Shown one piece after another: positions 51,865 through 56,281 of a stretch of 56,281 nucleotides of DNA. Numbering within the stretch: the first letter of the stretch is position 1; each line of letters begins with the position of its first letter. The stretch is from Eubacteriaceae bacterium (lineage in GTDB: Bacteria; Bacillota; Clostridia; Eubacteriales; Anaerofustaceae): NCBI GenBank assembly GCA_017551505.1, contig JAFZLL010000034.1, positions 1-56,281 on the forward strand. The letters run 5' to 3'. The notes under the pieces are model-generated. The model did no database searches and was not told the origin of the DNA. It saw nothing but the letters and a program-made list of their open reading frames with translations. A program made the position numbers and the translations under genes.

Positions 51865-53160
51865 ATGGAATCACTGAAAAAAGATACCGGAAAACTGTTT
51901 CTGCTGTTTTTCCTGTGCTTTTCCGTCATCTGCATCGTGACCGGCTTCGTGGTCGGCGGAGCTGACGCCATTCCCGGACTCATCAGGGTCATGACATCCT
52001 CCGAAAAACTCACCACCGACGTCCTCGCGCCGGAGATGGGAGGACTCGGAGGAGGACTTCTCTCGGTAGGTCTCGTCGGGCTCATAGCATGGGCTGTCCT
52101 GAAATTCAGCGGAGCCAAAGTCTCAGGAGCTTCTTTCGGAGCCTTCTTCCTGGCTGTGGGTCTTGGGTTCTACGGCAAAAACCCGCTCAATATCCTGCCC
52201 ATTATTTGCGGCACATTCATCTACGCAAAGTTCAAGAAAGTTGACTTCGGCACTGTTGCCAATAACTCTCTCTTCGCAGGAGCCTTAGGCCCGGCAGTAT
52301 CCGAAATGATGTTCGGTGCATGCAACCCCTGGGGGCTCGGTGTCGGCATCATCGTCGGAATCCTCGTCGGAATCCTCGTCGGCTTCTTCTTCACACCGAT
52401 GGCATCTCACGCTGCCACTATGCATAAAGGCATCAACCTCTATAACGCAGGCCTCACTGCGGGGCTCATGGGGATACTCCTCTTCGCTCTTTACAAGCAC
52501 CTGATACTCGTGCCCGCCGGAACTGTCGGCGATTACGCGGCAAGCTCCGTCAAGGGTGAGAGCTATCCTCTGTTCTTCAATATCTTCATGGGCGCCATAG
52601 GGCTGCTCGCCCTCGTAATGGGCGTTGTCCTCAACGGCGGATTCAAGGGATATGCGGGACTTCTCAAGAGAACCGGTTACAAGACAGACTTCGGAGCTCT
52701 CGACGGCGGCCCGTTAAGTCTAATCAACTTCGCCGTGCTGGACGCTTTCGGACTTATCTACCTGAACGTCGTCAAAGCTCCCTTCACCGGACCTGTTATC
52801 GGCGCTTTCCTGAGCATGCTCTGCTGGTCCGCCAACGGAAGCCATGTCCTGAACGTATGGCCGATATTCGCAGGATACGCGCTCGTCTCTCTGACCCAGC
52901 CCGCAGGCCTCGCATGGCTTGCCGGACAGGGGATACTCCTCGGCATCTTCTTTGCCAGCGGCTTGTCACCGGTCTCCGGAAAATATCACTTCTGGTGGGG
53001 GATCGTCGCAGGAGCGCTCCATGCCTGCCTGGTACCTTATGCCGGAGCCTTCCACGGCTGGCTGAACTGCTATAACGGCGGTTTCACCGCCGGCATGGTA
53101 GGATTGGTCCTGATCGCAGTACTCGAAACGCTCGTTCCCGATAAGGAAACTGCGAAATAG
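51865..53160 (+). CDS. DUF1576 multi-pass membrane protein
   Basis: A 431-residue polytopic protein of the DUF1576 family, with about ten to twelve hydrophobic segments and no signal peptide. An internal duplication is visible: INLYNAGLTAGLMGIL (near 189-204) and LNCYNGGFTAGMVGLV (near 400-415), each after a His-containing loop, and GPAVSEMMFG / GPVIGAFLSML also match. Family function is unknown; pseudo-symmetric halves are typical of transporters and channels. AAGGAG 6 nt before the ATG. It is alone between a divergent zinc-ribbon gene and a terminator. Confidence 0.88.
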   Translation: MESLKKDTGKLFLLFFLCFSVICIVTGFVVGGADAIPGLIRVMTSSEKLTTDVLAPEMGGLGGGLLSVGLVGLIAWAVLKFSGAKVSGASFGAFFLAVGLGFYGKNPLNILPIICGTFIYAKFKKVDFGTVANNSLFAGALGPAVSEMMFGACNPWGLGVGIIVGILVGILVGFFFTPMASHAATMHKGINLYNAGLTAGLMGILLFALYKHLILVPAGTVGDYAASSVKGESYPLFFNIFMGAIGLLALVMGVVLNGGFKGYAGLLKRTGYKTDFGALDGGPLSLINFAVLDAFGLIYLNVVKAPFTGPVIGAFLSMLCWSANGSHVLNVWPIFAGYALVSLTQPAGLAWLAGQGILLGIFFASGLSPVSGKYHFWWGIVAGALHACLVPYAGAFHGWLNCYNGGFTAGMVGLVLIAVLETLVPDKETAK

Positions 53161-53618: not shown

Positions 53619-54998
53619 CTATATCATTTTCTCCGGCTTGACTGTCTCATCGAATTCCTCAGCTGTGATGAGGCCGGAAGCAAGGGCAGCATCCCTAAGG
53701 GGGACACCTCTCTTGAGAGCGTCCTTGGATATCTCGGCAGCTGCCTTATAGCCTATCTTCGTGTTCAGAGCGGTAACAAGCGTCAGTGCGCTCTGCGCGT
53801 TTTTCCGCATGATATCCGTGTTGGCTTTCATATCTTTCAGGCATAAAGATGTAAAGCTTTCGATCGCGGCAGACATAAGGTTTATCGAGCGCACGAGCAG
53901 GTGCGCCATCAGCGGCATATTGACATTGAGCTGGAAATTCCCGTACATGGCGGCCATTCCGAAAGCCGCATCGTTTCCGTATACCATCTGCGAGACCATG
54001 ATAAGCGCTTCGCACTGCGTGGGATTGACTTTTCCCGGCATGATCGAGCTTCCGGCTTCCCTTGCGGGAAGGTTCAGTTCTTTTAACCCGCACAGCGGGC
54101 CTGAGGAATAGAACCGGATATCATTCGCTATCTTGATAAGATCCCCGGCAAGAACGCGCAGGGCGGCGTGTGCGCCTGCCGCCGCGTTTTTTGAAGACAG
54201 CCCTGCATAGAAATCCTTCATCGGGACCACACTCGTCCCCGATTCCTCTGTCAGATAGCGGCATGCCTTTTCAGAGTAGCCTTCAGGCGTGTTGAGCCCG
54301 CTGCCGACGGCTGTGCCTCCAAGAGGGATCTCACGTAGGCTCTCAAGGGACTGTTTTATGAGCGCCGTGTCGGTCTCTATGATATGCTGCCAGCCTGATG
54401 CCTCCTTGCCGAAGGAGATCGGTACGGCATCCATCAGGTGGGTCCTCCCGATCTTCACGGTATCCTTATGCTCCACTGCCTTGAGCCTAAACTCTTCCGT
54501 TATGGCGGCCAATGCGGGCAGCAGCTTCTTTTCGATCAGTAATATGGACGCAAGATGCATCGCCGAGGGGAAGACGTCGTTGGTACTCTGAGACATATTG
54601 ACGTCGTCGTTAGGGTCGAGACGGACAGACTTATCCAGCTTTTCAGCAAAACCGCAGATCACCTCGTTGACGTTCATGTTGGTGAATGTCCCGCTACCCG
54701 TCTGCCAGATCGTGAGGGGGAAGCTGTCATCCAGAGCTCCGGACAGTATCTCATCGCAGCCCTTTTCGATAAGCTCCGCCTTTTTTTCCGGAAGCACTCC
54801 CAATTCTCTGTTGGCCCTTGCGGCTGCCTTCTTTATCATGGCTACCGCGTATACTATCTCAAGAGGCATCCTTTCTCCCAGAAAGCTGAAATCATCCAGC
54901 GCGCGCTGGGTAGCGGCGCCCCACAGCTTATCTGCTTCTATCCTGACCTCTCCTATGGAATCGGTAACTGTCCTGTAATCCTTCTTTCCTGCCATCAT
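53619..54998 (-). CDS. fumC: Class II fumarate hydratase
   Basis: A 459-residue member of the fumarase/aspartase superfamily. WQTGSGTFTNMNVNEV near 95-110, DVNMSQSTNDVFPSAMH near 132-148, TVKIGRTHLMDAVPISFG near 180-198 and GSSIMPGKVNPTQCEALIMVSQ near 316-337 cover the active site. The V-N-P-T-Q-C-E signature favours fumarase over aspartase (V-N-P-V-x-P-E). It hydrates fumarate to malate in the cytoplasm and needs no iron-sulfur cluster. Two adjacent starts follow GGAGGG; the second (54995) is spaced better. Monocistronic here, divergent from the attenuated ABC-transporter locus. Confidence 0.94.
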   Translation of the reverse strand: MMAGKKDYRTVTDSIGEVRIEADKLWGAATQRALDDFSFLGERMPLEIVYAVAMIKKAAARANRELGVLPEKKAELIEKGCDEILSGALDDSFPLTIWQTGSGTFTNMNVNEVICGFAEKLDKSVRLDPNDDVNMSQSTNDVFPSAMHLASILLIEKKLLPALAAITEEFRLKAVEHKDTVKIGRTHLMDAVPISFGKEASGWQHIIETDTALIKQSLESLREIPLGGTAVGSGLNTPEGYSEKACRYLTEESGTSVVPMKDFYAGLSSKNAAAGAHAALRVLAGDLIKIANDIRFYSSGPLCGLKELNLPAREAGSSIMPGKVNPTQCEALIMVSQMVYGNDAAFGMAAMYGNFQLNVNMPLMAHLLVRSINLMSAAIESFTSLCLKDMKANTDIMRKNAQSALTLVTALNTKIGYKAAAEISKDALKRGVPLRDAALASGLITAEEFDETVKPEKMI

Positions 54999-55052: not shown

Positions 55053-55082
55053 TTGACATAGCCCTGCCTCATCTTATATATT
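55053..55082 (+). promoter_or_regulatory. Promoter of the leader peptide and ABC transporter
   Basis: Perfect TTGACA (55053-55058) then TATATA (55075-55080, 16-nt spacer) or TATATT (55077-55082, 18-nt spacer). The transcript would start near 55089, about 20 nt before the leader ATG. Confidence 0.85.
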
Positions 55083-55110
55083 TGACACAACAATTTGAAA
55101 GGCAGACGAA

Positions 55111-55230
55111 ATGAAGAAATTTTCAGGAAATGATCCCATGAGCTTCGTTTCCGCCGCAGATACGGCGTCTGTTTGCCCTGCCCTGTATTACGGTTATTAT
55201 TACTATTATTTTCGCGCCCCGAAAAAGTAA
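55111..55230 (+). CDS. Tyrosine-rich leader peptide
   Basis: A 39-residue frame from ATG 55111 to TAA 55228-55230. Codons 26 to 34 read Tyr-Tyr-Gly-Tyr-Tyr-Tyr-Tyr-Tyr-Phe (seven Tyr codons in eight, then Phe), and the end is RAPKK. GAAAGG lies 8 nt before the ATG. The leader has no protein role expected; its run of Tyr codons would stall a ribosome when charged tRNA-Tyr is short. This is the classic design of amino-acid biosynthesis leaders (as with Phe or Trp in enterobacteria), here with tyrosine and before a transporter. Coding by codon count, SD site and geometry of the downstream RNA. Confidence 0.85.
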   Translation: MKKFSGNDPMSFVSAADTASVCPALYYGYYYYYFRAPKK

Positions 55231-55299
55231 AAAGCCGTATTGACAGGTGAAGAGAAAAGTATAAAACTCGGCTCCGTCAATAGGCGGGGCCGTTTTTTT
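55189..55299 (+). promoter_or_regulatory. Tyrosine attenuator: pairing regions and terminator
   Basis: Region 1 (55189-55195, TACGGTT, inside the Tyr codons) pairs with region 2 (55233-55239). Region 2 (55234-55244, GCCGTATTGAC) can instead pair with region 3 (55276-55285, GTCAATAGGC), 10 bp with one bulged G. The terminator is CGGCTCCG (55269-55276) with 55285-55292, followed by seven T (55293-55299). The second pairing and the terminator share 55276 and 55285 and cannot coexist. A ribosome stalled on the Tyr codons covers region 1 and frees region 2; one at the stop codon covers region 2 and lets the terminator form. Confidence 0.8.
55269..55299 (+). terminator. Attenuator terminator
   Basis: An 8-bp stem (55269-55276 with 55285-55292, one G-T pair), TCAATAGG loop, and a seven-T tract. 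It lies 36 nt before the binding-protein ATG, so it controls entry into the transporter genes. Confidence 0.88.
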
Positions 55300-55334
55300 A
55301 TAAACAGTCATACTTAATCAATCGGAGGAAAATT

Positions 55335-56281
55335 ATGAAAAAACTGATCTCGACGCTGCTTATCGCAGCATTGGCCCTCTCGCTCGCGGCATGCGGCGGC
55401 GGGCAGAAACCGGAAGATGCCGCAAAGAAGGTCGGCATCATCCAGCTGGCCGAATTCGGTGCACTGGACGACGCCGCTGCAGGATTCATAGAAAGGATGG
55501 ATGAACTATGTGCGGAAAAGGGAGTCAAATGGGAACACCAACTTGAAAACGCACAGGGCGAACAGTCCGTCTGCGCCACCATCGCGACCACTTTCGTCAA
55601 CAGCGGGGTGGATATGATAATGGCTATCGCAACTCCGGCGGCTTCCGCTGCCGCCAGCGCCACTGCTGAAGTACCCATCATCTTTACAGCCGTCACCGAC
55701 GCGCAGGCTGCGAGGCTCGTCAAGACGAACGAGGTCCCCGGAGGCAACGTTTCAGGGACAAGCGACATGAACCCTGTCGCCCAGCAGATCGAACTGCTCT
55801 TAAAGCTCGTGCCCGGAGCCAAGACAGTCGGCATCATCTACTGCTCCGCAGAGCCCAACTCCGTCACCCAGGAGGCCATGGCGCGCAAGGAACTGGAAGC
55901 CAAGGGAGTTAACGTTCTTGATTTTACGGCTGCCGATTCCAGCGAAGTAGCGGCTGTGGCTCAAAGCATGGTCGGTAAGGTCGATGCGGTATATATTCCC
56001 ACCGACAACCTGATTTCCGCCTCCGCTGCAACGGTCGCCCAGGTACTGAATGCCGCCAAGATCCCTACAGTCGCGGGAGAGGCTTCCATGGTTGACAAGG
56101 GCTTCCTTGCCACTTTCGGAATCAATTACAAGCAGCTCGGGCGCCAGACTGCAGACATGGCTTTCAGGGTTCTGTTCGAAGGACAGAATATCGCCGAGCT
56201 CCCTGTTGAATTCTATACCAAGGACTGCGAGCTGACCGTCAACAGTGATACGGCAGAAGTCCTCGGGATCACGATTCCCGA
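55335..56281 (+). CDS. TrpX-family ABC transporter substrate-binding lipoprotein (3'-truncated)
   Basis: At least 315 residues; the frame runs off the window. The signal MKKLISTLLIAALALSLAAC ends in a lipobox with lipidated C20. The mature part has VGIIQLAEFGALDDAAAGFIERM, ENAQGEQSVCATIATTFVNS and IATPAASAAASATAEVPIIFTAVTD, characteristic of the ABC_sub_bind (PF04392, TrpX) family, where members are linked to tryptophan and related transport. The upstream attenuator suggests the ligand is tyrosine or another aromatic amino acid. GGAGG 6 nt before the ATG. Permease and ATPase genes should follow outside the window. Confidence 0.92.
   Translation, partial: MKKLISTLLIAALALSLAACGGGQKPEDAAKKVGIIQLAEFGALDDAAAGFIERMDELCAEKGVKWEHQLENAQGEQSVCATIATTFVNSGVDMIMAIATPAASAAASATAEVPIIFTAVTDAQAARLVKTNEVPGGNVSGTSDMNPVAQQIELLLKLVPGAKTVGIIYCSAEPNSVTQEAMARKELEAKGVNVLDFTAADSSEVAAVAQSMVGKVDAVYIPTDNLISASAATVAQVLNAAKIPTVAGEASMVDKGFLATFGINYKQLGRQTADMAFRVLFEGQNIAELPVEFYTKDCELTVNSDTAEVLGITIP

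Follow-up and report, generated by a model that had tools for sequence, protein, structure and literature searches.

A predicted trp-type leader-peptide attenuator with tyrosine codons upstream of an aromatic amino-acid importer gene in a Clostridia bacterium

The enteric trp, his and phe attenuators (Rfam Trp_leader, His_leader and Phe_leader) share a run of cognate codons in a leader peptide, mutually exclusive 1:2, 2:3 and 3:4 helices and a U-tract terminator. Leader-peptide attenuators for his have been predicted in Firmicutes, including Eubacteriales (PMC9413887); these His-leaders control the biosynthetic his operon, stand in place of T-boxes or repressors in some lineages and are missed by the proteobacterial Rfam model. 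A Phe-type leader, the uORFC-13-1 motif, has been proposed for aroF of Acholeplasma (PMC8632094). RNA-level control by tyrosine in Gram-positive bacteria is described as T-box based (PMC1262725), and trpXYZ of S. suis, a relative of the importer considered here, is under a Trp T-box (PMC9382623). Full-text literature searches returned no tyrosine leader-peptide attenuator; these searches covered open-access papers only, and the absence is therefore not proof.

The window analysed here is a stretch of 56,281 nucleotides from a Eubacteriaceae bacterium (contig JAFZLL010000034.1 of assembly GCA_017551505.1). Near its 3' end lies a region that we interpret, with a probability of about 0.88, as a trp-operon-type ribosome-mediated transcription attenuator that has tyrosine as its regulatory codon and would control an aromatic amino-acid importer. 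It resembles the enteric attenuators in the features named above but differs from them in its tyrosine codons, its importer target and its Clostridia host. Like the Firmicutes His-leaders it is a leader-peptide system, with tyrosine and a transporter in place of histidine and a biosynthetic operon. The uORFC-13-1 motif is likewise a candidate leader ORF with aromatic codons and a terminator, but for phenylalanine, a biosynthetic gene and other bacteria. The S. suis Trp T-box and the Tyr T-boxes (UAC) of relatives from the same order, described below, serve the same transporter family, respond to tRNA charging and allow readthrough when the tRNA is uncharged; a T-box binds the tRNA directly, whereas the codons of the window leader are proposed to be read by a ribosome. 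The Rfam Trp, Phe, His, Leu and Thr leader families gave no match in the window at gathering score, and no Rfam family matched there at all. The features of the region are as follows.

55053-55082, plus strand: promoter-like site TTGACA-18-TATATT, sigma-70-like, 11 of 12 matches
55111-55230, plus strand: leader peptide ORF, 39 codons, ATG to TAA, encoding MKKFSGNDPMSFVSAADTASVCPALYYGYYYYYFRAPKK
55182-55195, plus strand: region 1 (5' arm of helix 1:2), from just 5' of the first Tyr codon into the third
55186-55209, plus strand: regulatory codon run, seven Tyr and one Gly in eight codons, then Phe; kept as Tyr/Phe in 13 other loci
55233-55247, plus strand: region 2, directly 3' of the leader stop codon, partner of region 1 or region 3
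55269-55285, plus strand: region 3, comprising the terminator 5' arm (55269-55278) and the antiterminator pairing (55274-55285)
55269-55299, plus strand: intrinsic terminator (3:4), 10-pair stem, 4-base loop and U7
55335-56281, plus strand: substrate-binding lipoprotein gene of an aromatic amino-acid ABC transporter (PF04392, E 2.5e-67), running off the window

At the level of sequence, a promoter-like site, a Shine-Dalgarno sequence and a short predicted ORF precede the operon. An AAAGG, read directly, stands about 9 bases 5' of the leader ATG, and promoter-like sites with 11-12 of 12 matches also lie 5' of most other leaders described below. The initial annotation had reported a 39-codon leader ending at 55230 with seven Tyr codons in eight, and enumeration of the codons confirmed this (55186, 55189, 55195, 55198, 55201, 55204 and 55207). 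The run corresponds to the amino acid expected of the regulated genes, since the importer resembles the tyrosine-binding protein CD0873 and homologues carry Tyr T-boxes.

Folding bore out the three helices and the geometry first annotated for them, with region 1 in the Tyr codons and region 2 just past the stop codon. Helix 1:2 pairs 55182-55186 with 55243-55247 and 55189-55195 with 55233-55239; the fold of the whole region, which contains 1:2 and 3:4, reaches -39.3 kcal/mol (z -4.1, 0 of 200 shuffles as stable). Helix 2:3 pairs 55234-55247 with 55274-55285 and forms in segment 55219-55285 (-16.6 kcal/mol, z -4.2, again 0 of 200 shuffles as stable) when computed without the coding part of the leader and before arm 4 is complete. 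The antiterminator z is only -1.2 if the fold starts further upstream, in the middle of the Tyr run, because other local pairing then contributes. The terminator stem pairs 55269-55278 with 55283-55292 and is followed by the U7 tract, and the antiterminator pairing continues across the terminator loop as far as the opening bases of arm 4. Helices 2:3 and 3:4 share region 3, and the U-tract terminator excludes the 2:3 pairing, as had been claimed.

In a simple ribosome-position model, which assumes that the ribosome leaves RNA free starting 13 bases downstream of the first A-site base, the antiterminator has a probability of 0.99 whichever of the seven Tyr codons occupies the A site. With the ribosome at the stop codon, the modelled probabilities are 0.00 for the antiterminator and 1.00 for the terminator. 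The three helices are mutually exclusive in this model, with region 1 under the stalled ribosome and region 2 under the ribosome at the stop codon. When arm 4 is included, the equilibrium model gives mixed terminator probabilities across the Tyr codons, from 0.00 to 0.99; readthrough would therefore rely on 2:3 forming first, as in trp.

Under the proposed mechanism, transcription would start near 55090 and a ribosome would translate the leader. Under a shortage of charged tRNA-Tyr, the ribosome would stall within 55186-55209 and cover region 1; region 2 could then pair with region 3 (55274-55285), the terminator would be blocked and the importer operon would be transcribed. With tRNA-Tyr charged, a ribosome at the stop codon would cover the start of region 2, allowing the 3:4 terminator to form. 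In the case of no ribosome, 1:2 would sequester region 2 and termination would follow too. Stalling and the response to tRNA-Tyr charging are what we infer from this anatomy. RNA polymerase of B. subtilis is described as outrunning its ribosome in the passages of PMC9226507 and PMC7858274 that cite Johnson 2020; given this runaway transcription, coupling of transcription and translation in the present Clostridia lineage is an assumption, and it is the main question for the attenuator reading.

The last 140 bases of the window contig are identical to the end of contig G000:C53, on which the rest of the binding-protein gene is followed by genes for a permease (PF02653) and an ATPase (PF00005). 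Against the TrpX equivalog NF041285, the window protein scores 273.4 bits, under the 390-bit cut-off. The best solved relative is 6hni (CD0873), with an E of 4e-60. CD0873 of C. difficile binds tyrosine, with Glu-263 holding the tyrosine hydroxyl and Tyr-279 excluding tryptophan (PMC6816091). The likeness to CD0873 consists in the substrate-binding family and these two positions, occupied by Glu249 and Tyr265 in the window protein. Both residues are kept in 14 of 14 leader-controlled binding proteins. The selectivity residues were also tried as a means of telling Tyr, Phe and Trp regulation apart and failed, being shared across the classes: homologues under Phe T-boxes also keep both, and some paralogues under Trp T-boxes keep the Glu. 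The Tyr-selecting Glu is therefore consistent with a tyrosine importer without being discriminating. The predicted ligand of this transporter is an aromatic amino acid, most likely tyrosine.

Tandem binding-protein genes occur in L009, L010, L011, L043, L047 and L121, one protein carrying the Tyr-selecting Glu and the other Ala or Cys; in L044, the second tandem protein has Asp at this position. Such an arrangement suggests paired Tyr and Phe binding proteins. Elsewhere in the window, a gene at 51865-53160 on the plus strand encodes a 431-aa membrane protein of the DUF1576 family (PF07613); it adjoins a gene of the fumarase/aspartase family at 53619-54998 on the minus strand.

The expectation that relatives use T-boxes at such genes was borne out. 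Rfam T-boxes above gathering score precede the homologous gene in 15 relatives of the same order, and all 15 have UAC (Tyr) at the position of the specifier. A UUC (Phe) specifier was read in L020, L028 and six class-level loci whose T-box was found by motif only. All specifiers were read by eye, with calibration only on the other T-boxes of the host, which precede genes that by their look we take to encode aminoacyl-tRNA synthetases. A second TrpX-like gene of the host, a more distant paralogue at G000:C6:15164-16374 (L002, L069), is preceded by an Rfam T-box whose specifier is UGG (Trp); one genome therefore uses two RNA mechanisms for two paralogous aromatic importers. A T-box-to-leader swap within one genus (L016 versus L020 and L028, all g11) was considered and dropped because the tree puts L016 in another branch and orthology with L020 and L028 is unsupported.

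The host may depend on such an importer. Neither prephenate dehydrogenase (PF02153) nor prephenate dehydratase (PF00800) was found in its genome, which is 96.6% complete, and it therefore looks like a predicted Tyr/Phe auxotroph. The same two families were not found in G001, G006, G011 and G004, all with leaders, and both are present in G010, also leader-bearing; control genomes for these searches were positive in 14 of 14 cases.

Binding-protein homologues were gathered from relatives and public genomes. A Tyr/Phe-rich leader followed by a terminator stands directly 5' of the binding-protein gene at 14 loci, the window (L001) included: L001, L035, L036, L037, L040, L042, L045, L065, L022, L029, L064, L066, L016 and L033, with duplicate contigs (L006=L035, L007=L036, L008=L037) counted once. 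The first eight are all the members of one clade (support 98), and each of them has a leader. The leader lineages are scattered over several places in a quick tree of which the root was not inferred, and about six label changes are needed, at least four of them forced by starred branches; this scoring of the label predates the reading of L045.

The RNA sequences of different leader lineages are unrelated, and the same alternative structures occur in most loci. Measured at 13 loci, the distance from run start to terminator is 110-111 bases in L016 and L033 and 79-92 in the other 11. Antiterminator z values range from about -2.7 to -4.7 in L036, L037, L022, L029, L064, L066, L016 and L033 (although the minimum-energy antiterminator fold of L033 uses a single base of arm 3), reach -1.9 in L035 with the fold started mid-run, and are not significant in L040 (-1.7), L042 (-1.1) and L065 (0.0). 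Arm 3 is freer to pair upstream with the ribosome mid-run than at the stop codon in all 14 loci, as is partly expected because more sequence is then free; shuffling gave p <0.05 in 5 of 14. Covariation is thin: most combinations of structure and sister pair show 0-2 double changes, many base pairs are unchanged and some are broken, so the compensatory changes support the helices, but not strongly. The comparison of orthologous loci thus recovered the Tyr/Phe run and terminator in 13 other loci and the alternative structures in most, but few double compensatory changes. The main refuting condition set in the initial annotation, homologous loci devoid of run and pairings alike, did not apply. 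In the subclade of L040, L042, L045 and L065, the leaders are longer, an FAGAFYF-like stretch recurs and the terminator lies only about 13-29 bases past the stop codon; the architecture there may differ from that of the window.

A composite scan of 1.27 Mb on both strands, for a short ORF with a Shine-Dalgarno sequence and at least 6 Tyr/Phe codons in 9 (at least 3 of them Tyr) followed by a terminator, returned 11 matches. All 11 lie directly upstream of this transporter gene, and nowhere else in the 1.27 Mb did the combination occur. In a control scan over residue pairs, Phe/Tyr came top with 11, followed by Ala/Tyr with 8 (which shares Tyr with these leaders) and Leu/Arg with 6; the residue pair alone therefore gives a modest contrast, and the main weight rests on the association with the gene. 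Tyr runs elsewhere in the host genome lie within genes or have no clear leader architecture, and a Tyr-run pattern applied to 13 family genomes found, beyond the known leaders, only runs lacking leader context. No candidates were taken up from a class-wide pattern of a Tyr run with a nearby T-tract, the spacing of which was ill-suited to a real distance of about 100 bases. At G000:C31:1530 on the minus strand (L078), a short YYYY run shares its frame with a possible lipoprotein start that lies just 3' of it.

A ribosome-mediated attenuator before an ABC transporter, as the initial annotation proposed, is thus supported by the exclusive helices, the ribosome model, the 14 loci and the gene association. 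For a purely computational case our confidence in it as a regulatory system is high, and the physiological response is a prediction. Its tyrosine specificity comes with a caveat: seven of eight codons in the window run are Tyr, but several orthologous leaders are about half Phe, and strict tyrosine specificity is therefore best supported for the window itself. The signal in relatives may be Tyr plus Phe. That the attenuator senses the charging of both tRNAs jointly would be a refinement of the best explanation and not its opposite, and we consider it possible but rather unlikely. Leaders such as L035 (VYFYGFYFYFTYF) and L045 (FYFGYFYF) mix the two codons about equally, T-box specifiers at homologous genes vary between UAC and UUC with lineage, and the host was found to lack both terminal pathways; yet the only Phe codon beside the seven Tyr codons in the window sits after the run, and the Phe codons may simply follow from a need for unpaired, U-rich RNA.

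Explanations that dispense with codon reading fare worse. Arrest by the nascent peptide in the style of TnaC or SecM, in which a Tyr-rich peptide would stall the ribosome on free tyrosine instead of uncharged tRNA, is improbable: the leader peptide is hydrophobic and the FAGAFYF-like stretch recurs, but in one subclade only, and outside the aromatic run almost no residues are shared. Leader length and the distance from start to run vary, unlike in arrest peptides, and the T-boxes at homologous genes read tRNA charging. Slightly less probable again is a constitutive terminator next to an incidental Tyr-rich ORF or small protein gene, with no regulation; thin covariation and the computational nature of the attenuator reading leave it some room, but the combination recurs at 14 loci, solely before this gene, with a second exclusive fold in most of them. 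A degenerate T-box, which the T-boxes of relatives might lead one to expect, is scarcely credible at the window site. None was found there at gathering score, the combination of an RF00230 covariance-model match and a T-box core does not precede the window gene, and the four T-boxes of a whole-genome RF00230 search lie elsewhere, none on contig C29; the idea is refuted at the sensitivity of RF00230.

The mechanism of a ribosome-mediated attenuator is itself classical. As far as was searched, three things are new: regulatory codons for tyrosine, an importer as target, and the alternation of T-box and leader. Tentatively, and at slightly less than even odds, Tyr or Tyr/Phe leader attenuators may have arisen several times in Clostridia, taking the place of T-boxes at the same aromatic importer family. 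If true, such repeated origins would need transcription and translation to be functionally coupled at these leaders; in the phylum as a whole, judged from B. subtilis, coupling is thought to be weak or lacking. A single short leader would be enough to test how far coupling extends in Clostridia. In this transporter family some lineages use leader peptides and others T-boxes for Tyr or Phe, and one genome combines a Trp T-box at the paralogous gene with a Tyr leader at the importer; the family lends itself to a natural comparison of two answers to the same regulatory problem.
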